A DNA stretch of 34,158 nt, from IMG/VR virus record IMGVR_UViG_3300025168_000308, positions 1 to 34,158 of that record, one strand, 5' to 3'. Shown one piece after another: positions 22,396 to 34,158 of the stretch (positions within the stretch are counted from its first letter, which is position 1; each line of letters starts with the position of its first letter). Source of the stretch: a virus. Under the pieces are notes generated by a model. The model searched no databases. It had not been told where the DNA came from and worked only from the letters and a program-made list of their open reading frames with translations. The translations under genes and the position numbers were made by a program.

Positions 22396-24177
22396 ATGAT
22401 GAACAACATGTCACAAGGGCTCGGTTCGTTTAACAACATGATGCCTCAGAACAACATGCAGCAAAACCCTTATGGCCAACAGATGAACCCGCAGATGATG
22501 GGTCAACAGGTTCGCTCACCAGAGATGTTCAGCGAACAGCTAATGAACCCGATGATGCCTCAGATGCAAGACCCGTTGCAGGGCTTACAGCCGATGGCCG
22601 AGCCAGAGGGCTTTGGCGTTTACGGTCAGTCTTTATCTGGCTTCGCGGACGGCGGTGCGGCATCCAGTGGCGGCGTTCCTCGTGAGACGGTGATTGGTGG
22701 CCAGCCTCACATGTTGGCTTATATTAATCCTGAAGAGGAGCAGATGCTTTATGCCGCTGGCGGTTCGGGCGAGCCGGGTCCGGGCGGCATTCCTGCTTTT
22801 ATTCCTGACGATGGAAATCGCGGCTCCTCCTACGCGCCCAGAACTTCCCCGCGCCCAAGAGCGCGGCCCGCGGACCTTTCTTCTTCAATGCGTCGGGCCA
22901 GTAGTCAGTCCGCGGCTGAACTAGCTTATATGGCTCGGGCTAGGAGGGCTGCTCAACAATCCACGGCTGGTCAACAGGCCGAGGCTAATATAGCTACTCA
23001 ACAGGCGGCTGTTAAAAAACAAGCGGCTCAACAAGCCGAGGCTGATCGTAGACAAGTTTTGTCAGACCAACGTCTCGCGGATCAACAAAGGGCTCAACAA
23101 GGAACGGGTATTGCAGGTTTGGGCGGTCAGGGTGGTATGAGTACACCCGTAAACGTCTCCTATAACAATCCGGGCACAGGCCTGTCCGCCGACCGCCGCG
23201 CTTTAATAACTCAGGCTTTACAAAACACTCCTGTTAACCAGCGTGATGGGGTAATGAAGGCGCTGTTAGAATTACAAGGGCCTCCAGTAGATAACGAGAC
23301 CATCCCTAAGACCGTTTCTTTTCCCGGGGGGAATGTTGTTGGCGGAACCGTACCTACTGCCGCAACTGTTGGCGGTTCCGCCGCGGAAAAACTTGCCGGG
23401 TACAGAAAAAACACGCCCAACACCTTTAGAGAATTCTTAGCAAATGCGTTAACTCCGGGTGACCAAATGAAGTATGTAAACGGTCTATTGGTGTATGGGG
23501 ATAACCATCCAAACGCTGGTCAGCCCGTTCCAGAAGACGCCACAAATTCATTTGGACTAAAGGTAGGGATGGGCAACAGCGTAGGAAACGACAATCCGGG
23601 TGCAGGAAATTTCGCTAACTCTGGAGAAGCGCAGGCCGCGAACCAAGGTGGCCTACCCGGAATTCCCGGCGCTATTGCGGGTACTTTGGGAAAGGGTATG
23701 GCCTTTCTTGGGGGCATACGACCTACAGATGTTGAGGTAGGCCGTGGCGCAGATGGCCTACAGATTTTTCAGACAGAAGGCGCTTTTGGCGGGGCCGGAA
23801 ATTTTTATGTAATTGACCCAATGACGGGTTTAGTTCGCAATGTTAAAGGTGCTAACGATTCAACCTCTCCACTTGTAGACATGAGCCAGATGATGGACGA
23901 CGCCAGTAGCAACAATTCTGCGGAAGAACTGGCCTACGTTGCTAATCTTCAAGCCGAACAGGATGCTATTAATAACCCTGTGGTAGATGATCCTTACTCT
24001 CCAACTCCTTTAACAAGAGCGGGAACTGGAATGGGCTCTAATGTTGGCACTATTTACGACACGGGAAATACGATAGTTGAATCCGGTACAAATCCTTTTG
24101 CCCAAGGAAACCAAGTTGGTGCGCTTACTTTTGAAGAGCTAATGCGGCTTAACCAGCAACAAAATCGTATTCTTTAA
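22396..24177 (+). CDS. Met/Asn/Gln-rich internal virion protein
   Basis: 593 residues. Residues 1-65 are extremely Met/Asn/Gln/Pro-rich (NNMMPQNNMQQNPYGQQMNP). FADGG at 83-87 and YAAGG near 119-123 bracket VPRETVIGGQPHMLAYINPE, a stretch I recall from other phage internal proteins. Residues about 160-240 are an Ala/Gln/Arg helix (AELAYMARARRAAQQSTAG). The rest is glycine-rich with no catalytic motif. Starts at ATGATG 22396 after the TAAGTAG double stop; the stop overlaps the next start by one base (TAATG, 24175-24179). It is grouped with the ejection set by composition, shared Gly-Gly motif and position. Confidence 0.65.
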   Translation: MMNNMSQGLGSFNNMMPQNNMQQNPYGQQMNPQMMGQQVRSPEMFSEQLMNPMMPQMQDPLQGLQPMAEPEGFGVYGQSLSGFADGGAASSGGVPRETVIGGQPHMLAYINPEEEQMLYAAGGSGEPGPGGIPAFIPDDGNRGSSYAPRTSPRPRARPADLSSSMRRASSQSAAELAYMARARRAAQQSTAGQQAEANIATQQAAVKKQAAQQAEADRRQVLSDQRLADQQRAQQGTGIAGLGGQGGMSTPVNVSYNNPGTGLSADRRALITQALQNTPVNQRDGVMKALLELQGPPVDNETIPKTVSFPGGNVVGGTVPTAATVGGSAAEKLAGYRKNTPNTFREFLANALTPGDQMKYVNGLLVYGDNHPNAGQPVPEDATNSFGLKVGMGNSVGNDNPGAGNFANSGEAQAANQGGLPGIPGAIAGTLGKGMAFLGGIRPTDVEVGRGADGLQIFQTEGAFGGAGNFYVIDPMTGLVRNVKGANDSTSPLVDMSQMMDDASSNNSAEELAYVANLQAEQDAINNPVVDDPYSPTPLTRAGTGMGSNVGTIYDTGNTIVESGTNPFAQGNQVGALTFEELMRLNQQQNRIL

Positions 24178-27100
24178 TGGAGCAGCTTAAACGTTTACAA
24201 CTTATGGAACGTGAAATGATTTCTGATGGGAAATCAGCTTCGGAGATTGACGGTGCTAAAGCCCGCATTCGCCAGCAAGCTTATTCCGGAATACCTCCTG
24301 AGCTTAACGGCGTCGGGTCTTTAAGCGAAACGGCGCGGAATATGAACCGCGGCCCGCGGGGCATTGCCGCTTACATGGCGGAAGGCGGAGAAGCCGAGGA
24401 AGAAGTCTATGATGCAGGTGGTCGGTTTCAATTTGACCAAAACATGCAAGAACCTTCTATCGTTAGTTTTTTAAGAAAAATGTTTAACCGGGACACTTAC
24501 GATACTTCTTTAGAAAAGGCCCGCAAGATAAAAGCAGGGGAAATGCCCACAGGTTATGAACCCCCCGGTGTACGACTCTCTCGTGAGTTCATAGGAATGA
24601 CTCCTATTGGGACTGCGGAAACGGGGGTCGCCATGTATGACGAGTTTAACCAAGATGACCCCAACTACTTAAAACTAGGAATTATGGGAGCAGGGGAACT
24701 GGCGGGTTATATTCCTTTGGCGGGTCCACCTATTAAAAAAATGATTCGCGGCGGTAGAGGAAATGTTCCGATTAACAAGAATGTTTTTGATGATTCCGAA
24801 GAAATTATTGAAGTGTATCATGCGACTCCTAACGCTCCTTTTGAAAAATTAGACGCAAACATGTCAGATTTAAACAAAGATGGAGCTTTTGGGCCGGGAG
24901 ATTATTTTTCGTTAGATAGCAGGTATCCGTCACAATTTGTTGGTGGAAGAGGAAGTTTATTATCTGCAAAAGTTGATGTTTCAAGAATGCTGGATGCTAG
25001 GTTGGGGGGCAAGCCGTTTACTTCAGATCAAACAGAAGGTTTAATAGAAGCTCTTTCTCGTAGAACAGACTTAGATGGAAAAAATTTAACGGTTGTAAAA
25101 AAAGATGACGTGTTGTCTGTTTCTTATGTAAGAAGACCTCTTTTTTCTGGTGAGCCGTTGGCAGACCGCAGATTAGTTCAAAGAATCCCTCTTAGAAATG
25201 CGGAAGAGGCTTTTAAAAAAATTAAAGAAATAACTAATAATATTAAAAACCCCCTTCAAAAAGATGCAGATGGATATGCCCTCGTTAGAAACAATTCAAC
25301 TAATACGGAAAATTTAAAAGATGTTTTAAGTGAATCGGGTTTTACTGGCGTAGTGGGTGTACAAGAAGCAAGTAGCGGTGGAAAAAGTAATTTAGTTGTA
25401 TTTGATAATTCGGTTTATAAAGATGGTGGCAAACTCGATACTGTAATAGATCAGGGAGTTATTCCAGAAGACATAGGGTTTTCTGCGTCACGATCCGCAG
25501 ACGAGTATACAGCCGGAAACGATGCTAAAATAGTTGAAAATTACAGAAGACGTTTAGAGAAGGAAAACGTTTCCCCCCCGGGGTCTCCGGACTTTCGTAC
25601 TTCTGAAGACATTGAACTTCTTGTACAAAACTTTGCTAGGCAACGATCACAAAAATACGCAGACGGAGGCGAAGTTATGGAAGGCATTGGTTCTTTAAAC
25701 GAAACCGCACGAAACATGACTCGCGGACCGCGGGGCCTTAACTCTTTGCAACGTTTTGCTGAAGGCGGAGAACTAAACGTTAATTTACAACCTCTTGATT
25801 TGCCCGTTGATGGCCGTATGTCATACACTAAAACAGACGACGGGGGGATGTTTGACAGTGAAGTAAGCAAAACGTTTGAGGGGGGCCTTGGATCGCTAAC
25901 TCCTTCTTTTGATTATTCTACTCAAAACAGTTCTAGAGACATGGGCGACGTGGTTATAGATGAAAACGGCGAACAGATAGGCTTTGCCGTAGAGGGTGAA
26001 TTGTTTTTAAACTCAGACCCTGACAGTGAAGACAAGGTTCGCGGAGCATTTGAAGTAGAAAAATCTCGTAACAACACAAATTTCACGTTTCCAGAAGGGG
26101 AGTTTGTGCGGACTAATGAGGGTCTTTTAAAACGGTTTAATCTTGGAATGGATTTAGGGCGCTTTGGGTTAGATTTAAACCGCATGGAGGGCTCCGGTAG
26201 AGAGCCTGTAAATTCTGGGTCAGCTACTATTAGAATTGGCGAAAACGGTATTGTTAGATACAGTGATTCTGACCGAGGTGAACCGACTATTGGGTTTAAT
26301 TATGCCAGAGAGTTCGCGTCTGGCGGACCTGTTTATATGAAAAACGGGGGAGAATCGTCGGAAGCTAAAGCTAGAAAGGATGTTTTAAACACCATTTACG
26401 AAATTGAGTCCAACTCAAATTATGACCAATGGAATTTAAAGGCAAAAAACCCTCCTGAAACACCTTTAAGCTCTTTGACAATTCAAGAAATAATGGATTT
26501 TCAAGGTGATGAAAACGGTCCCGCGGCGGGCGCAGGTCAAATTAAATACAATACTTTTAAATACTTGATTAAAAGTGGCGTACTTTCTCCTGACGATGTT
26601 TTCTCTCCGGAAAACCAAGATGCGGCAAACAGCCGTTTACTTGACCGAAGAGGTTTTGTTTCGTGGTTTAACGGAGACATTTCAACGGAAGAGTTTGGGT
26701 CAGACGTAGCCAAGGAATGGGCTTCTCTTCCACTGCTTGAAAGCAGGGATGTTTCAGGGGGGAAAAAGGAAAGAGGTGATTCTCGTTACGGGGGATCAAA
26801 CAAGGCTCTTGTCGGGGCGGACTATTGGCAAGAGGCTTTAGACTCGGCAAAAGTCTCTCAACCTACAGTGGTTGCAAGTGCCGATACATCTGGAATTGCA
26901 ACTTTCTTACCCCAGACAGAAACGCGGGCCACGCAGCCTCAACCCGTTTCCTATGTCCCAAACTTTCAAGGGTTTCAAATGCAGCCTTCTCAAGCCTCTT
27001 CCATGCCGGGGCCGCTTGAACCTGAAAGACCTCCGGTAGAAGAAGCAAAACAATACGCCAGCTTGTATGAAAAATACACCCCGCAAGCTATGCAGGATGC

Positions 27101-27254
27101 TTTGCAGGGACTTGGTTATTTCAACAGTCCTACGGGACCTTCTGGTTATCAACAGTTCGCTTCTGGCGGCGAAGCTTTAGGACCGCCCCCGTTACGCGGA
27201 CCGGACCCACAAGGCATTGGCGCTTATCAACAGTTTAACGCAGCCAACCGCTAA
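24177..27254 (+). CDS. Multidomain virion protein: ADP-ribosyltransferase-like + beta domain + lambda-type lytic glycosidase
   Basis: 1,025 residues. Order: GVGSLSETARNMNRGPRG motif (45-62) with MAEGG; hydrophobic stretch (168-185); ART-like domain (about 208-418) with H215 in EVYHATP, Y243 in GPGDYFSLDSRY and the closing strand NLVVFDNSVYKD (405-416); second GIGSLNETARNMTRGPRG motif (503-520) with FAEGG; beta-rich domain (533-712); FASGGPVYMKNGG (713-725); a lysozyme-like domain (about 731-890) with E744 in TIYEIESNSNYD, AAGAGQIK (783-790), FSPENQDA (809-816), WASLP (848-852), as in lambda endolysin; Pro/Gln tail ending in two GYQQF/AYQQF copies. Probably a virion wall-cutting enzyme plus a host-modifying domain. 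It overlaps the minus-strand helicase by 20 bases. Confidence 0.7.
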   Translation: MEQLKRLQLMEREMISDGKSASEIDGAKARIRQQAYSGIPPELNGVGSLSETARNMNRGPRGIAAYMAEGGEAEEEVYDAGGRFQFDQNMQEPSIVSFLRKMFNRDTYDTSLEKARKIKAGEMPTGYEPPGVRLSREFIGMTPIGTAETGVAMYDEFNQDDPNYLKLGIMGAGELAGYIPLAGPPIKKMIRGGRGNVPINKNVFDDSEEIIEVYHATPNAPFEKLDANMSDLNKDGAFGPGDYFSLDSRYPSQFVGGRGSLLSAKVDVSRMLDARLGGKPFTSDQTEGLIEALSRRTDLDGKNLTVVKKDDVLSVSYVRRPLFSGEPLADRRLVQRIPLRNAEEAFKKIKEITNNIKNPLQKDADGYALVRNNSTNTENLKDVLSESGFTGVVGVQEASSGGKSNLVVFDNSVYKDGGKLDTVIDQGVIPEDIGFSASRSADEYTAGNDAKIVENYRRRLEKENVSPPGSPDFRTSEDIELLVQNFARQRSQKYADGGEVMEGIGSLNETARNMTRGPRGLNSLQRFAEGGELNVNLQPLDLPVDGRMSYTKTDDGGMFDSEVSKTFEGGLGSLTPSFDYSTQNSSRDMGDVVIDENGEQIGFAVEGELFLNSDPDSEDKVRGAFEVEKSRNNTNFTFPEGEFVRTNEGLLKRFNLGMDLGRFGLDLNRMEGSGREPVNSGSATIRIGENGIVRYSDSDRGEPTIGFNYAREFASGGPVYMKNGGESSEAKARKDVLNTIYEIESNSNYDQWNLKAKNPPETPLSSLTIQEIMDFQGDENGPAAGAGQIKYNTFKYLIKSGVLSPDDVFSPENQDAANSRLLDRRGFVSWFNGDISTEEFGSDVAKEWASLPLLESRDVSGGKKERGDSRYGGSNKALVGADYWQEALDSAKVSQPTVVASADTSGIATFLPQTETRATQPQPVSYVPNFQGFQMQPSQASSMPGPLEPERPPVEEAKQYASLYEKYTPQAMQDALQGLGYFNSPTGPSGYQQFASGGEALGPPPLRGPDPQGIGAYQQFNAANR

Positions 27255-28677
27255 CGTCCTCTTTTAGCACCTGACCCGCTAGATCAATCTTACTGCGCAG
27301 CGCGTTCAACACCTTCTCATCTATGGTGTTGGGCGACACAAGATCAATATAAGTTACAGCATTCTTCTGCCCGATCCGGTGAGCGCGGTCCTCGGACTGT
27401 AGTCTTATCTCAAGGTCGTAAGAGTTACTGTAATAGATCACGGTGTTGGCCGCCGTCAGAGTGATGCCATAGCCGCCTGTCTTAGGCTGCCCCACAAAGA
27501 AACGCAGCGGATCATCGTCGTCTTGGAAGCGGTTAACAATCTCTTGACGTTCGTCTTGCGGCGTTGCTCCGTAATAAAGTGCGACCGAATCGGGCCCGAA
27601 ACGGTCGCGCAGGGTCTGGCAAATCTGTTGGATATCGTGAGTGTACGAAGCCCAAATGATTGCCTTCCCTGATAGTTCATCTGTAATGCTCATTAGTTCA
27701 TTCAGACGGTTGTTCTTTAGCTTCTGTATCTTTCCAACGTCGGGCTGGAAGAAACCGCAGCAAATCTGTTGTAGGCGCATTATTTGCGTCAAGACACTTT
27801 CTGTCGTCGCAAGCTCCCCGTTCTCAAGCTGTGCAAGAGCCAGCTTCTTCATCTGCCCGTAAACCTTGGCCTGCTCGTCGGTCAGTTCTACGTTGCGCCG
27901 AGTATAAATTTTGTCTGGGAGGTCTAGGCAGTCTTCTTTCAAAACTCGGGTGGAGAAGGTAAACAACTTCTCGTTTAACTCGTCTAGTCGGCGGTATCCC
28001 GTTATCTCTTGAAAACTCCGCGCTCCCATCACACGTTTCTGGACTATAGCGTACCTGTTCTGAAAAGCAAAGAAACTGTTATAACCAAGCGCCCGTTCGT
28101 CTAAGAAGTTGCACTGGCTAAACAAATCCATTGGGCTTTTGGTAACAGGAGAGCCTGTTAGTATGCGGCGGTACTTACTGTACTTCGTTAACACCATCAG
28201 GTTCTTTGTGCGTTGCGCCTTGCGGTTCTTGATAGTCGTGCTTTCGTCAATAACCATCATGTTGTCAGGGTTCTGCACTAGAAAACGCCCCGCGGCCCGC
28301 GCACCTCTGGGAGAGGAAAACGCTTCGACATTCATTACAAATATTTTAAGACCGTCGTAGTCTTCCATTATTAATTCTTCTAGTTCTGCGGCAAACTTCT
28401 TGCTTGAAGAGGGCGTCCAGCTTACTATCCTACGCTCAATTCGCTCTGGCATATGCAAGGGAATTTCGCCCAGCGCCCAGTTGTCATACACACCTTTAGG
28501 AGCCACGATTAACGCGGCCTTTATTTCGCCTTTTTCAAAAAGAACACCAATGTTATCTATAGCGACTTTACTCTTGCCCGTACCCATTTCCATGAAGTAC
28601 GCATGAAAGCTCGCGGACCACGAATCTTGTAAAGCTTTCCGCTGATGCTCGAACGGTTCTGTTTTATATTCGTACAA
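27235..28677 (-). CDS. SNF2-type superfamily 2 helicase
   Basis: 480 residues, with all main motifs: Walker A MEMGTGKS (29-36, K35), motif II VIDEST (142-147), motif III ILTGSPVT (172-179), motif V GGYGITLTAANTVIYY (401-416) and motif VI QSEDRAHRIGQK (427-438). It is a compact two-lobed SNF2-like DNA translocase or helicase typical of phage replication and recombination modules. The start is TTG at 28675-28677, supported by AAAGGA six bases upstream and an in-frame TAA just before it; the next in-frame Met would delete the P-loop lead-in. It is the only minus-strand gene, converging with the virion block (20-base overlap) and diverging from the replication genes. Confidence 0.85.
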   Translation of the reverse strand: MYEYKTEPFEHQRKALQDSWSASFHAYFMEMGTGKSKVAIDNIGVLFEKGEIKAALIVAPKGVYDNWALGEIPLHMPERIERRIVSWTPSSSKKFAAELEELIMEDYDGLKIFVMNVEAFSSPRGARAAGRFLVQNPDNMMVIDESTTIKNRKAQRTKNLMVLTKYSKYRRILTGSPVTKSPMDLFSQCNFLDERALGYNSFFAFQNRYAIVQKRVMGARSFQEITGYRRLDELNEKLFTFSTRVLKEDCLDLPDKIYTRRNVELTDEQAKVYGQMKKLALAQLENGELATTESVLTQIMRLQQICCGFFQPDVGKIQKLKNNRLNELMSITDELSGKAIIWASYTHDIQQICQTLRDRFGPDSVALYYGATPQDERQEIVNRFQDDDDPLRFFVGQPKTGGYGITLTAANTVIYYSNSYDLEIRLQSEDRAHRIGQKNAVTYIDLVSPNTIDEKVLNALRSKIDLAGQVLKEDVSGWLR

Positions 28678-28696
28678 AGTTTTATCCTTTTGAAGC

Positions 28697-28725
28697 TTGA
28701 CTATACGATCTTATGAGAATATAAG
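28697..28725 (+). promoter_or_regulatory. Strong sigma70-type promoter for the replication genes
   Basis: TTGACT (28697-28702), a 17-base spacer and TATAAG (28720-28725): five of six matches at each box. Transcription would start near 28732, about 44 bases before the ATG at 28776. It is the best promoter in the window and would drive the coupled genes to the right. A minus-strand promoter overlaps it. Confidence 0.6.
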
Positions 28726-28737
28726 CGTGTTTGTCAA
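28710..28737 (-). promoter_or_regulatory. Opposing promoter for the SNF2 helicase, overlapping the rightward one
   Basis: On the minus strand a perfect TTGACA (complement of 28732-28737) is followed by 16 bases and CATAAG (28715-28710; four of six), or by 18 bases and TAAGAT. Transcription would begin about 25-30 bases before the TTG start of the helicase. Its footprint covers the rightward -10 (28720-28725), so both cannot be occupied together. The -35 is convincing, the -10 only fair. Confidence 0.45.
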
Positions 28738-28775
28738 GGCCGTAAAAGGGTCTTTAACAGCGAAAGTGAAAAAAC

Positions 28776-29345
28776 ATGACAGATATACTATCAATGATGG
28801 AAGCCGACTTTGAAGAGAACGTCGCATCTTCCATGGAAAAGGGCAACCTTGGCGGCATAGCCATACTAGCCCGCAAAATACGAACAGCCCAGCAAGAAGT
28901 CGAAGAGATTGAGAAAGACCTCAAGTCTCGCAAGAAAGACTTGCTGAAGCTGACAGATGAAGAACTACCTTCTGCTATGCAGGAACTAGGTATTTCCTCG
29001 TTTGCTCTGGATGACGGTTCAACAGTAGACGTAAAGCCTACATATGGAGCCAGCATTTTAGTTGCCAACAGGCTTCATGCCTACGCTTGGTTGCGTGACA
29101 ATGGCTACGACGACATTATTAAAAACATCGTTTCATGCGAGTTTGGTCGTGGCGAAGACGATCAAGCCAGCGCTTTTAAAGCGTTTGCTTCTAAAGAAGG
29201 GTTTCCGGCGGATCAGAACGAAAGCATCCATTCGGGCACACTAAAAGCTTTTGTACGGGAACGTGTGGAAGCTGGGGACGACTTTCCAATGGAACTTTTC
29301 GGGGCCTATATCGGTCAACGCGCTATAATCAAAGGAGCAAAATAA
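28776..29345 (+). CDS. Phage protein with coiled coil and FGRGEDD motif, replication module
   Basis: 189 residues. An N-terminal coiled coil (about 33-70, QQEVEEIEKDLKSRKKDLLK) is followed by a small beta/alpha domain (GISSFALDDGSTVDVKPTY; HAYAWLRDNGYDDIIKN) and the signature FGRGEDD (123-129), then TLKAFVRERVEAGDDFPMEL and LFGAYIGQRAIIK. I recognise this as a family found in many phages beside SSB-like genes, but I know no demonstrated function. Partner or accessory of the adjacent SSB-like protein is a reasonable guess. There is no clear ribosome site before ATG 28776. The stop overlaps the next ATG by one base. Confidence 0.75.
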   Translation: MTDILSMMEADFEENVASSMEKGNLGGIAILARKIRTAQQEVEEIEKDLKSRKKDLLKLTDEELPSAMQELGISSFALDDGSTVDVKPTYGASILVANRLHAYAWLRDNGYDDIIKNIVSCEFGRGEDDQASAFKAFASKEGFPADQNESIHSGTLKAFVRERVEAGDDFPMELFGAYIGQRAIIKGAK

Positions 29346-30127
29346 TGGCGAATGCAGTAACAAAAAATAAAGCAGCGGATGTAGCCGTGTTTGACACATC
29401 CATGTTCGAAGCAGATGCGGGCGCGGGAAACCAAAACGTAGGGTCAGAAGACCTCGCGCTGCCGTTTCTCAAGCTGTTGAGCGGGTTAGATTCCTTGCTG
29501 GACACACACGAAACCGCGCGTAAAGGTGACATATACAATACCGTCACAGGCACTGTAGTGAGCGGTAAGGATGGGTTAAGCGTAATTCCTTGTGCCTATC
29601 AGCGCGTGTTCATTCAGTGGGTTCCAAGGGGCGCTGGTACAGGCGCACCGATGAACGTCTACAAGCCGAATGACCCCGCTATGCCAAAGACTGAGCGTAG
29701 CAAAGAAGATAATAAAAACTACGTTGTCGGCGGTGACGGTGACTACATCGAAGAAACTCACCAGCACTACGTTATGATCGTCAACGAAGACGGTTCAACT
29801 GAAACGGCTCTGATTGCAATGAAGTCCACGCAGCTAAAGAAAAGCCGCAAATGGAACAGCATGATACAGTCGGTAACGATGCAGGGTAAGAACGGTCCGT
29901 TCACACCACCCCGCTTCTCTCACGTTTACCGCATCAAAGCGGAATCCGAGGAGAACTCTAAAGGTAGCTGGCACGGTTGGGAAATGTCCCGAGAAAACCC
30001 TGTGCAAGACGCATCCGTATATGCCCGAGCAAAAGCTTTCTCAGAAAGTGTGCTTACTGGCGACGTGGTTGTAAAACACCAAAACGAAGATGACAAAGGC
30101 GAAGGCGCTGACGACATTCCGTTTTAA
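29345..30127 (+). CDS. SSB-like protein with DDIPF C-terminal tail
   Basis: 260 residues. AAGGAG precedes ATG 29345. The body has SEDLALPFLKLLSGLDSLLD, GLSVIPCAYQRVFIQWVPRG, AMKSTQLKKSRKWNSMIQS and PFTPPRFSHVYRIKAE, a family seen in many phage replication modules. The chain ends in an acidic disordered tail closing DDKGEGADDIPF: the DDIPF end is the interaction tip used by bacterial SSB proteins to recruit partners. A single-stranded-DNA-binding function is therefore inferred from the tail, the basic KKSRKW patch and position before the primase; I see no classical OB-fold signature. Confidence 0.6.
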   Translation: MANAVTKNKAADVAVFDTSMFEADAGAGNQNVGSEDLALPFLKLLSGLDSLLDTHETARKGDIYNTVTGTVVSGKDGLSVIPCAYQRVFIQWVPRGAGTGAPMNVYKPNDPAMPKTERSKEDNKNYVVGGDGDYIEETHQHYVMIVNEDGSTETALIAMKSTQLKKSRKWNSMIQSVTMQGKNGPFTPPRFSHVYRIKAESEENSKGSWHGWEMSRENPVQDASVYARAKAFSESVLTGDVVVKHQNEDDKGEGADDIPF

Positions 30128-30136
30128 TGTTTACTA

Positions 30137-30158
30137 GGGGGCTGCTTCGGTAGTCCCC
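30137..30158 (+). promoter_or_regulatory. Stable RNA hairpin with cUUCGg tetraloop before the primase
   Basis: GGGGGCTGC (30137-30145) pairs with GTAGTCCCC (30150-30158) over nine pairs, two of them G-U, closed by the tetraloop TTCG between C and G, an exceptionally stable RNA loop. It occupies most of the 48-base gap between the SSB-like gene and the primase, six bases before the ribosome site AAGGA (30164-30168). There is no following T-run, so it is more likely an mRNA processing or stability element, or a translational modulator, than a terminator. Confidence 0.55.
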
Positions 30159-30175
30159 ACCGCAAGGACAAAACC

Positions 30176-31714
30176 ATGACAGTTAAAAAGTTCTCGTCTA
30201 TCTTTGATGGACTGAAAGAAGCTTACGGCACATACCGGATAGAGAAAACTCAGTCCAACGGGAAGAACACAGGCAAAGCAGGCATCGTTCGCGAACCGCG
30301 CAACGCGGGTCTGTGGGAGGGCCACCTGTCGGGTAAGGGAAACTCTATCGGCATTATCCCAATAAACGCAGATAACATGTGCAAGTGGGGCTGTGTAGAT
30401 ATTGACCAGTACCCGCTGGATCATAAACTACTCTTAGAAAAGATCAGGAAGCTAAAACTTCCGCTCGTTGTCTGTCGCTCTAAGTCTGGCGGAGCGCACT
30501 GCTTCCTATTCTGTAAGGATTGGGTTGAGGCAAAAGACATGCAAAGGTCACTCAAAAGTATAGCGGCCGCGCTGGGCTACGGTGAAAGCGAGATATTCCC
30601 AAAGCAGATTAAACTGCACCTAGATCGTGGAGATGTGGGTAACTTTCTAAATCTTCCGTACTACAACGCAGAAGACGGTCTGCGCTACGGCATCCTAGAT
30701 GACGGCACTTCGGCCACTCTAAAAGAATTCTTTGAACTCTACGAGACACACGTTCAAACGCCAGAGCAAATCCAGAAGCTCCAGATAACAGAAGCAACCG
30801 AAACAACGCCCGTAAGAGACGGCCCGCCGTGCCTACAGCACTTAGTCAAAGAGAAAATCTCTGAGGGTGGGCGCAATAACGGTCTGTTTAATATAGGCGT
30901 GTACCTTCGCAAGGCGTTCCCAGATAGCTGGGAAACAGAAATCCTGACCTACAACATGCAATACTTTGAGCCGCCGCTCCCACTGTCAGAAGTTACAGTG
31001 GTTGCAAAGCAGCTAGAGCGCAAAGATTATGCCTACCGCTGTAGTGATGCGCCGATAAACGCGCACTGTAACAAGGAACTTTGCCAAACCCGTAAGTTTG
31101 GTATTGGGAGCGCCATACAGAACGCTACAGTAGCCAATCTGCGTAAGTACAATTCAACGCCCCCCGTCTGGTTTATGGACGTTAACGGCGAGCCTCTGGA
31201 GCTAGATACAGACGCCCTAATGAGCCAGCCGATGTTTCAGAAAGCATGTATGGAGCAACTCAACTTCATGCCGCGCAGCGTGGCAAAGCAACAGTGGGAA
31301 GGTCGGATCAGCGCACTGCTTACAGAGATGCGCGAAAACGAAAGCGCCATCATGGAAGTGGCAGTAGACGCCAGCGTTAGCGGCCAGTTTTACGACTACT
31401 TAGAAGAATTTTGTCGTTTCCTACAGCAAGCGCAGGACAAAGAAGAAATCTTGCTCCGCCGCCCTTGGACCGACGAAGACGCAATGGTAACCTTCTTTCG
31501 CCTAAAAGACTTCGAAAACTTTCTAAAGAAGAACAAATTCTTTGAGTACAAGTCACACCGAATTGCCCAGCGCCTGCGTGACATAAACGGCGATAGCACC
31601 GTTCTGAAGATCAAAGGCCGCGCAGTGCGGGTCTGGCAGATTCCAGCGTTTGAGTCTGGCGACATAGATATAACAACTCCAGACTTCACACCAAAACAGG
31701 AGAGCCCGTTTTGA
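30176..31714 (+). CDS. Archaeo-eukaryotic-type DNA primase (TOTE/AEP-like) with PriCT-like region
   Basis: 512 residues. The primase domain (about 20-165) shows the metal pair D75/D77 in GCVDIDQYP, RSKSGGAHCFLF (101-112) with H108, SEIFPKQIKLH (138-148) and GNFLNLPYY (155-163). It resembles the AEP domains described from TOTE systems and phages. Residues about 220-290 (SEGGRNNGLFNIGVYLRKAF; PPLPLSEVTVVAKQLERKD) match primase C-terminal (PriCT) domains, followed by C289, H297, C298, C303, a possible zinc site, then RKFGIG. There is no Walker motif, so no helicase is fused. It would make primers, or polymerise, for phage DNA. AAGGA precedes the ATG; the stop overlaps the next TTG start. Confidence 0.75.
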   Translation: MTVKKFSSIFDGLKEAYGTYRIEKTQSNGKNTGKAGIVREPRNAGLWEGHLSGKGNSIGIIPINADNMCKWGCVDIDQYPLDHKLLLEKIRKLKLPLVVCRSKSGGAHCFLFCKDWVEAKDMQRSLKSIAAALGYGESEIFPKQIKLHLDRGDVGNFLNLPYYNAEDGLRYGILDDGTSATLKEFFELYETHVQTPEQIQKLQITEATETTPVRDGPPCLQHLVKEKISEGGRNNGLFNIGVYLRKAFPDSWETEILTYNMQYFEPPLPLSEVTVVAKQLERKDYAYRCSDAPINAHCNKELCQTRKFGIGSAIQNATVANLRKYNSTPPVWFMDVNGEPLELDTDALMSQPMFQKACMEQLNFMPRSVAKQQWEGRISALLTEMRENESAIMEVAVDASVSGQFYDYLEEFCRFLQQAQDKEEILLRRPWTDEDAMVTFFRLKDFENFLKKNKFFEYKSHRIAQRLRDINGDSTVLKIKGRAVRVWQIPAFESGDIDITTPDFTPKQESPF

Positions 31715-31908
31715 CAACCCCAGTATTAAAAAAACTTAGAAACGTAGAGATCGTCCGGATGATCGACGAACAGCACATGACAAAAACCGCCGTCGCTAAA
31801 TGGTTTAAAATAAGCAAACAGCGCGTGTGGCAGATTTACGAACGGGAGAAAGAAAATGTTCAGGATATTCGGCCCACCGGGGACGGGGAAGACAACCAGA
31901 CTTCTTAA
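31711..31908 (+). CDS. Small helix-turn-helix protein, TTG start
   Basis: 65 residues from TTG 31711 in a TTGA overlap with the primase stop; AGGAG (31698-31702) is eight bases upstream. Residues 23-46 (MTKTAVAKWFKISKQRVWQI) form a clear HTH of the kind seen in sigma region 4 and small phage regulators. The last 17 residues, acidic and polar, are encoded in the overlap with the helicase gene (53 bases). It could regulate phage promoters, for example the opposed pair near 28700, but no target is visible. An alternative start is ATG 31759, which would leave the HTH intact. Confidence 0.65.
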   Translation: MTTPVLKKLRNVEIVRMIDEQHMTKTAVAKWFKISKQRVWQIYEREKENVQDIRPTGDGEDNQTS

Positions 31909-33376
31909 TATGGTTGACGACGCGCTCCAAAAGGGTGTCGCCCCGATGAACATAGCTTTCCTAGCTTTTACACGCAAAGCCGCCAACGAAGCAAAAGAAC
32001 GCGCGGCTAAACGCTTTAACCTAGACCCCAAGAAAGACCTGTTCTATTTCCGGACACTGCACAGCCTAGCTTTGACCTGTTCCGACATACGCACCGAACA
32101 GGTAATGCAGGACGAAAACTATAGGGAACTCTCCAGAGAGATGGGGGTGCAGCTAAACGTAGCTCGTACCAATAACTTTGATGACGATCTGCCTGAGATG
32201 ACCAAAGCAACTGACCCTATCTTGGGCCTGATTAACCTTGCCCGAATGCGCAAAGTGCCGCTGCGCCAACAGTACAACGAAACCCCAATCGAAATAGAGT
32301 GGAACATTGTAACCTATGTGGACAAATGCCTGACCAGCTACAAAGAAAACATGGAGATGTACGACTTCACAGATATGCTGGAGAACTTTCCAAAAGAAGG
32401 CTACACAAGCTGCCCGCACTTTGACCTATGCTTTGTAGATGAAGCGCAAGACCTTTCACCCATACAATGGGACATAGCGCACATCCTAGACGAACGATCA
32501 AAAAGAATGTACTGCGCAGGCGATGATGACCAAGCCATATACCGCTGGGCAGGGGCAGATGTAGACCACTTTATCGGGCTGGACGGCGGATCAGAAACCC
32601 TGTCACAATCCTACCGCGTTCCATTCCTAGTACACCAACTGGCAGAACGGGTCGTGTCCCGTATCGGTAAGCGCTTCCTTAAAGAATACAAACCAAAGGT
32701 CGATGAATACGGTTCGATACGCCGTATCTTCAGCGTCGAAGAGATAGACATGTCAGAAGGATCGTGGCTCATCCTCGCCCAAGCCGGATACCAGCTACAG
32801 CCCGTAGCCGCCGAACTCCGGTCCTCCGGATACCTGTTCATCAATCGCGGCCATCGCTCCATATCCGAAAAGATATCCGACGCCGTTAACGGTTGGGAAC
32901 AACTGCGCAAAGGCAAAGAAATCACAGGAGCCGTAGCGCGTAAAATATACAGCTACATGTCAACTAAAGACCGCGTGAAAAGAGGCTTTAAAACCCTGAC
33001 CGCCGTCGAAGATACAGACTTCGTAACCCTCGAAACACTGACCGCGGACCACGGACTTTTAGCAACACAAGACATGGTATGGCATATTGCCATGGACCGC
33101 GTACCAGAAAGCGACAGAGCCTATATCATTGCAATGCTTCGACGAGGCGAGCGCTTTAACGGCGAGCCACGCATAACCGTGTCAACGATACACGGGGCAA
33201 AGGGCGGAGAGGCGGACAACGTAGTTCTATTCACAGACCTTTCCCCCGCCGCCGAAGAACAAATGAATGTTAACCCAGACGACACGCACCGCGTATTCTA
33301 TGTGGGCGTAACTCGCGCTAAACAAAGCCTGTTTATCGTGGAACCTCAAGACTTCACAAGGAGTTATGATCTATGA
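31856..33376 (+). CDS. UvrD/PcrA-like superfamily 1 helicase
   Basis: 506 residues. Motifs: Walker A GPPGTGKTT (6-14), Ia AFLAFTRKAANEA (34-46), II DEAQD (195-199), III GDDDQAIYRWAGA (222-234), IV region SQSYR, V VSTIHGAKGGEADNVVLF (442-459), VI RVFYVGVTRAKQ (479-490). All catalytic residues of a 3'-5' SF1A helicase are present and the length is short, as in phage versions. The start must be ATG 31856, since the P-loop begins at residue 6; it lies inside the HTH gene (53-base overlap). It probably unwinds DNA for replication or recombination together with the primase and SSB-like protein. ATGA overlap with the next gene. Confidence 0.88.
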   Translation: MFRIFGPPGTGKTTRLLNMVDDALQKGVAPMNIAFLAFTRKAANEAKERAAKRFNLDPKKDLFYFRTLHSLALTCSDIRTEQVMQDENYRELSREMGVQLNVARTNNFDDDLPEMTKATDPILGLINLARMRKVPLRQQYNETPIEIEWNIVTYVDKCLTSYKENMEMYDFTDMLENFPKEGYTSCPHFDLCFVDEAQDLSPIQWDIAHILDERSKRMYCAGDDDQAIYRWAGADVDHFIGLDGGSETLSQSYRVPFLVHQLAERVVSRIGKRFLKEYKPKVDEYGSIRRIFSVEEIDMSEGSWLILAQAGYQLQPVAAELRSSGYLFINRGHRSISEKISDAVNGWEQLRKGKEITGAVARKIYSYMSTKDRVKRGFKTLTAVEDTDFVTLETLTADHGLLATQDMVWHIAMDRVPESDRAYIIAMLRRGERFNGEPRITVSTIHGAKGGEADNVVLFTDLSPAAEEQMNVNPDDTHRVFYVGVTRAKQSLFIVEPQDFTRSYDL

Positions 33377-33705
33377 AACAACAAGAACGTTTTGAATTTA
33401 TAGAGGCCGAGATTGACCGAGCCTATGTTCACGCTGATGACGAATGGAAACAAGAGTATTACCAGAACGCCGCTAAATATCTAGCTGAACACAAGATTGT
33501 TGAAGGCGGAAAGATTTGTGCCTTTTGCAGATCACAAGGGATGGCTGATCCGCACCACCATAACGTTTGGGGTGCAATGATGACATCTCTAAAAAAACTA
33601 GGGTGGGTCGAGAAGATAGGAATGGTCCGCCCAACTACACGCCACACGCATATTAACGAAGTATGCCAATGGGAAAGCAAACTATTTAAGGGAGAGAAGA
33701 CGTGA
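33373..33705 (+). CDS. Winged-helix-like phage protein with CxxC and HHH
   Basis: 110 residues. The N-terminal half is helical (EAEIDRAYVHADDEWKQEYY). The C-terminal half, PHHHNVWGAMMTSLKKLGWV then MVRPTTRHTHINEVCQWESK, resembles small winged-helix proteins found near phage replication genes, where a histidine/Gly turn precedes a recognition helix. CAFC (49-52) and H61-H63 could bind a metal, but the spacing is not that of an HNH nuclease. Starts by ATGA overlap with the helicase and overlaps the next GTG by four bases. Function: DNA binding inferred, not shown. Confidence 0.6.
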   Translation: MKQQERFEFIEAEIDRAYVHADDEWKQEYYQNAAKYLAEHKIVEGGKICAFCRSQGMADPHHHNVWGAMMTSLKKLGWVEKIGMVRPTTRHTHINEVCQWESKLFKGEKT

Positions 33706-33857
33706 ATTGTTGGCATTGTAAGACAGAACTTATTTGGGGAGGAGATCACGATTGTGAGGATGACGAAGAGCATTCTATGGTCACAAACCTCTCATGCCCT
33801 AAATGCGAGAGCTTTGTATTAGTTTATTATCCAAGGGAGAAAGAAGATGAAACGTGA
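33702..33857 (+). CDS. Zinc-ribbon microprotein (GTG start)
   Basis: 51 residues, GTG 33702 in a GTGA overlap with the preceding stop, with GGGAGA upstream. It has two Cys pairs: CWHC (3-6) and CPKC (32-35), with KTELIWGGDHDCEDDEEHS between them. This is the pattern of a small phage zinc ribbon that I recall in several phage groups (CWHC...ELIWGGDHD...CPKC). The stop TGA is at 33855-33857 and overlaps the next gene's start (ATG 33847) by 11 bases. Likely DNA-, RNA- or protein-binding; no specific role visible. Confidence 0.75.
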   Translation: MNCWHCKTELIWGGDHDCEDDEEHSMVTNLSCPKCESFVLVYYPREKEDET

Positions 33858-34158
33858 TGAAATACTGGATTTGTCAAAAGAACTGATAAACGGCCAACGC
33901 GCCAAAGACTACGGCGATGCGTTCGACAACCACAACAGAATAGCGGAGGGTTGGAACATAATTACAAACAGCGCACTGGTAAGCCACGGCGCACTGACCG
34001 CGCAGCACGTTGTATTAATGATGGATTGGGTGAAGACAGCACGGCTACTTAACACTCTGGATCACGATGACTCTTGGATAGATAAAGTTGGTTACAGCGC
34101 TCTTGGTGGCGAGTTCTCACAAAAGAACGAAATGATCCAAGAGATAGAAGCAGTAAAG
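33847..34158 (+). CDS. DUF6378-like protein, 3' end outside window
   Basis: 104 visible residues from ATG 33847 (ribosome site GGGAG in CCAAGGGAGAAAGAAG); the frame stays open to the edge. Sequence ILDLSKELINGQRAKDYGDA, with GALTAQHVVLMMDWVKTARL and DSWIDKVGYSALGGEF, fits the phage family I remember as DUF6378: a helical protein with a YGD-type N-terminal motif and conserved D and K in the helices. Its place among replication genes has suggested a link to nucleotide metabolism, as for MazG-like proteins, but I know of no proof. Little of the protein is likely to be missing. Confidence 0.75.
   Translation, partial: MKRDEILDLSKELINGQRAKDYGDAFDNHNRIAEGWNIITNSALVSHGALTAQHVVLMMDWVKTARLLNTLDHDDSWIDKVGYSALGGEFSQKNEMIQEIEAVK

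Follow-up and report, generated by a model that had tools for sequence, protein, structure and literature searches.

Putative overlapping divergent promoters form a conserved bidirectional hub between helicase and replication genes of marine phages

A compact bidirectional hub very probably lies between the helicase gene and the replication operon of a viral genome, where two overlapping divergent sigma70-type promoters (28696-28738) would be used by the host RNA polymerase in a mutually exclusive manner. The DNA analyzed, hereafter called the window, is the whole 34,158 bp of the IMG/VR virus record IMGVR_UViG_3300025168_000308, and from its letters and those of its relatives we infer the activity in both directions, the use of the host polymerase, the exact transcript starts and the exclusion. 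Up to position 27254 the window carries structural genes that are all read rightward; the helicase and the gp33-like gene that opens the replication operon then face outward from starts separated by 98 bp, and the promoter boxes fall inside this gap (Table 1). Genome contigs were searched for a relative of the gp33-like protein in a prophage or host and none was found, and a comparison of the window with Rfam gave 0 matches. At its 3' end the helicase gene shares 20 bp (27235-27254) with the 3' end of the last structural gene; late transcripts going rightward could therefore extend, as antisense RNA, into both the helicase and the hub.

Table 1. Coordinates of the genes, predicted promoter elements and predicted RNA features around the hub (positions in the window).
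Feature	Position	Strand	Remarks
SNF2-type DNA helicase	27235..28677	-	TTG start; ribosome site AAAGGA at 28685-28690
Interlocked bidirectional promoter hub (predicted)	28696..28738	both	ends CTTGAC/GTCAAG inverted
Rightward -35 box TTGACT	28697..28702	+	TTGAC nearly invariant across 74 aligned 41-bp cores
Predicted leftward transcript start	28701..28703	-	beside or inside the rightward -35 box; from the -10 position
Alternative leftward -10 box TAAGAT, 18-bp spacer	28708..28713	-	10/12 matches; 47/74 cores score best with 18 bp
Leftward -10 box of the earlier note, CATAAG, 16-bp spacer	28710..28715	-	
Rightward -10 box TATAAG, 17-bp spacer	28720..28725	+	core columns 26-27 (T, A) 0.95-1.00; final base never T (74 cores of 41 bp)
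Leftward -35 box TTGACA	28732..28737	-	same hexamer in 74/74 cores of 41 bp
Predicted rightward transcript start	28732..28733	+	within the leftward -35 box; from the -10 position
Stem-loop AAGGCC / GGTCTT	28736..28754	+	very 5' terminus of the predicted rightward transcript
DUF7307 / Pam3 gp33-like protein	28776..29345	+	opens the rightward operon
Remaining replication operon: Pam3 gp34-like, AEP-type primase, HTH, UvrD-type helicase	29345..33376	+	
65-aa sigma region-4-like HTH protein, stand-alone	31711..31908	+	candidate regulator

An earlier note on this DNA had described two opposed promoters, TTGACT-17-TATAAG on the plus strand and TTGACA-16-CATAAG on the minus strand, interlocked so that both -10 boxes lie between the two -35 boxes and bounded by an inverted repeat (CTTGAC, 28696-28701; GTCAAG, 28733-28738). 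On re-reading, the boxes are base-exact at these coordinates and both the repeat and the interlock are present. Each direction has 10 of 12 matches to the sigma70-type consensus at its best spacing (16-18 bp), and the pair falls within the general class of overlapping divergent promoters, in which promoters on opposite strands have overlapping -35 to +1 stretches. Both -10 boxes are off consensus, and two readings compete for the leftward one; the site based on TAAGAT is the sole 10/12 site listed in a consensus scan of 24000-34158, a list from which the rightward promoter is missing because TATAAG lacks the final T.

In order to estimate chance expectation, interlocked pairs were scored by their matches to TTGACA/TATAAT at 16-18 bp (maximum 24). 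The hub is the best such pair in the window, with 20/24 matches at one place, and an equal or better pair was obtained in only 1/2000 base shuffles of the 98-bp intergenic region. The evidence from the window sequence alone is moderate, suggestive without being proof, since a pair as good appears somewhere in 20/300 dinucleotide shuffles of the whole window. What settles the case, and makes it strong, is conservation across relatives rather than the single sequence.

With two viral contig scans and a few annotated records, 156 loci were collected that have both genes in divergent orientation; they hold 83 distinct intergenic regions, 82 of which were compared. Facing -35 boxes were found in 81 of these 82, at 41 bp end to end in 74 and at 40 bp in 7; the exception is L072/L073, where the right arm is lost. 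Among the 74 cores of 41 bp the leftward box does not vary, and the rightward box reads TTGACT in 51, TTGACA in 22 and TTGTCT in 1; both -35 boxes approach 2 bits of information content and the spacer columns mostly stay below 1 bit. The 41-bp arrangement is present in 131 of the 134 full-length loci of the window's lineage. One spacer position, the G at 28717, is invariant in 74/74 cores of 41 bp and is required by neither promoter, hinting that a further protein may be bound. When the 41-bp DNA pattern was used as the sole bait, it led to the helicase/replication junction in 78 of the 80 loci examined (80 listed loci of 119 stretches): 73 matches lay between both genes, 3 adjoined the helicase only, 2 the gp33-like gene only and 2 lay elsewhere. 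The pattern was built from the same lineage, so this demonstrates specificity to the junction and not independence. A looser pattern was found at the junction in 15/20 records, with 4 more matches elsewhere.

Three additional scans with the helicases of relatives as queries led to sister lineages with other geometries. In the 023Pt_psg01-like lineage, 58/58 distinct upstream regions carry TTGACA...TGTCAA with an end-to-end length of mostly 37 bp (range 36-38), and the 37-bp pair is present in 79/79 of its full-length loci. The HTVC027P-like lineage carries TTTACT...AGTCAA, which encloses TATATA and measures 51 bp from end to end; the pair was found at 50-51 bp in 73/78 loci and in the 51-bp form in 70/77 full-length loci, and both directions appear to share TATATA as one common -10 box. 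In L249 and related loci of this lineage, the apparent ribosome sites of both genes also lie within the 51-bp hub upstream of the helicase, where they form a CTTTCT/AGAAAG dyad; the -35 box of the helicase, AGTCAA, extends into the ATG of the neighbor gene (AGTCAATG). No clear facing -35 pair was found among the 11 members of the freshwater DSL-LC04-like lineage, 8 of which have a palindromic AGTGTACACT, and examination of HTVC023P gave no such pair. In a helicase tree of 80 rows rooted at midpoint (support of the 41-bp group 74/73) the geometry forms are clustered, and L321, which is basal to the 51-bp group, carries the 37-bp form; for this reason an interlocked ancestor is the probable origin of the 51-bp form. 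The retention of the pair despite these changed layouts suggests that overlapping start signals matter to these marine phages.

The most serious competing explanation is space economy, in which ordinary promoters were squeezed into a short gap and their overlap has no regulatory meaning; it accepts the promoter pair, disputing only the value of the overlap, and its chances are put a little short of even. The intergenic regions are indeed short, about 90-120 bp in the window's lineage and shorter in the sister lineages, and an insertion or deletion within the overlap would harm both promoters, so that the fixed length needs no selection for exclusion. Additionally, five divergent gaps other than the hub were scored and one of them was clearly interlocked, namely the HTVC027P gp20/gp21 gap (L339, 4562-4656), with 20/24 matches and 0/200 shuffles as good. 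On the other hand, the pair is still interlocked in intergenic regions of 158-167 bp (L037, L107, L108) and the overlap outlasts the geometry changes between lineages, although both observations are also compatible with economy.

A palindromic operator is an unlikely reading. The CTTGAC/GTCAAG ends and the conserved center would then serve as a binding site for a repressor or activator of the phage, with the promoter likeness being secondary, a view that the near-symmetry of the hub and its invariant central G, dispensable for both promoters, would favor. However, both arms fit the -35 consensus, and their spacing is 41, 37 or 51 bp according to lineage, a movement not expected of a fixed dyad, whereas in every one of these geometries a -10-like hexamer lies about 16-18 bp from each -35 box. 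The arms thus move relative to each other, yet the spacer of each promoter remains usable; the constraint therefore resembles that of two promoters, and selection appears to act on these rather than on one fixed dyad operator.

It is similarly improbable that the hub works as the earlier note had proposed, with the small HTH protein encoded at 31711 binding it and flipping transcription between the helicase and the replication genes. The HTH gene lies inside the rightward operon, where it overlaps the end of the primase gene on one side and the start of the UvrD gene on the other, and a homologue matches the family profile (E<=1e-3) in the primase-UvrD gap of 144/155 loci. Region 4 of sigma factors is the domain that reads -35 boxes, and the family profile fits it: against the PDB, sigma factors come first (best SigB, E 5.6e-4; rpoD region 4, about 0.01), and each of the 10 HTH members scanned has a match to Sigma70_r4 (E<=0.1; best 1.1e-8), the window's own copy reaching 0.066, under the curated cut-off and with other HTH families ahead. 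Its recognition helix is nevertheless unlike that of sigma70 at positions which we take to be base-contacting. Among 13 whole records, a homologue was found in 7 and not in G006, G008, OR003939 (DSL-LC04), 023Pt_psg01, HTVC027P and HTVC023P; of these, the complete 023Pt_psg01 (37 bp) and G006 and G008 (records of 43-51 kb, 40-41 bp) have the pair nonetheless, so that the protein does not seem to be required for the arrangement. The HTH protein is thus an attractive but not necessary candidate regulator. A stronger proposal, also improbable, is that mutual exclusion is itself the selected trait: one platform would fix the ratio of helicase to replisome, the stand-alone sigma region-4-like protein would read the facing -35 boxes and could close both directions at once, and the overlap would be kept or re-made in three geometries because separation is harmful. 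Finally, an AT-rich dyad origin of replication is highly improbable: the core G+C is 32% and replication genes adjoin it, but the GC skew has no clear sign change at the hub (window, G001) and promoter grammar accounts better for the conserved -35 columns.

The predicted rightward RNA would open with a stem-loop, which begins at about its nucleotide 4. A stem forms at the same place in the folds of all 37 distinct leaders, and the folding z-score of the window leader (-0.96) is not unusual. The letters of the stem vary by sublineage (GGC/GCC, GAC/GTC and, in L072, GCAC/GTGC). Compensatory changes were found at two stem pairs; covariation support is modest overall, since in a test of 22 leaders picked from the 37 distinct ones plus one from L072 the score was reached by 2/500 shuffles and the count of pairs changed on both sides by 156/500. 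Given the precedent of ompA, in which a 5'-terminal stem slows RNA decay, the same effect may be guessed at here by analogy. A boxA-like antitermination signal was also considered in the rightward leader, where GGTCTTTAACA resembles what we take to be the rrn boxA; it was rejected since part of the likeness falls within the covarying stem and other sublineages do not retain it.

Under the preferred reading, that of two overlapping promoters, the leftward one would start near 28702 and lead to helicase expression, and the rightward one would start near 28732 and lead to the replication operon through the leader that opens with the stem-loop. Each predicted start lies at or inside the opposite -35 box, so occupancy should be exclusive and a polymerase bound in one direction would shut out the other. 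The relative HTVC027P lacks an RNA polymerase gene and is described as relying on the host polymerase throughout (PMC12753301); its RNA-seq describes early genes that are all of unknown function, and therefore does not place the replication genes as early (PMC12753301). In E. coli exclusion is reported, yet at five bidirectional promoters basal activity was too low for competition (PMC12825309). The near-consensus -35 boxes could lift the phage pair above the competition threshold of E. coli. Of the switch between helicase and replication genes put forward earlier, there remains a real-looking promoter pair, exclusive by geometry, with the helicase to the left and replication to the right; its regulated character is not sustained, since both outputs are replication functions and competition was absent at basal level in E. 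coli. The likeliest effect would be that one shared platform sets the ratio of two replication functions by coupled expression, and not a two-state switch.

These results bear on the open question of whether divergent promoters overlap by accident or because the overlap is selected for. In these marine phages an overlapping pair with near-consensus -35 boxes has persisted at a single junction, across wide divergence and in several layouts, and the phage hubs constitute a set of small natural promoter variants. Moreover, HTVC027P has been cultured and its RNA-seq published, so that a direct test, by moving the promoters apart, is within reach.

Several known systems resemble the hub. Divergent phage promoters of the host polymerase at a control junction are also present in lambda (PR/PRM) and, reportedly, in TP901-1 (PR/PL), where they serve a repressor-based lysis-lysogeny decision; unlike in these phages, no repressor or lysogeny gene was identified at the phage hub. 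The Pr/Pc promoters of plasmid pLS20 likewise overlap divergently, and according to the authors the polymerase binds only one at a time and thereby serves as a switch itself (PMC4207663). There, a dedicated regulator and DNA looping switch between regulator and conjugation genes (PMC4207663), whereas both outputs of the phage hub are replication genes. The bidirectional promoters of E. coli described by Warman et al. are similar in that divergent transcription arises from one short pseudo-symmetrical stretch to which two polymerases cannot bind at once (PMC12825309, PMC10268837). By the definition used there, divergent starts are 7-25 bp apart (PMC10268837), whereas the predicted starts in the window (28701-28703 and 28732-28733) are 29-32 bp apart. 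Unlike those promoters, with their shared -10 element, the form in the window has two separate -10 boxes and two near-consensus -35 boxes, and throughout a phage lineage the hub is retained at a single junction. A common -10 box seems to be found only in the HTVC027P-like lineage, in which the 51-bp form, with TATATA common to both directions and predicted starts separated by about 19 bp, fits the commonest class of Warman et al. (18 bp). The open-licence literature searched on phage overlapping or bidirectional promoters contained no report of this hub. Overlapping divergent promoters are a known type of element, of which the phage hub, as judged from comparison of its relatives, is a new and well-conserved form.
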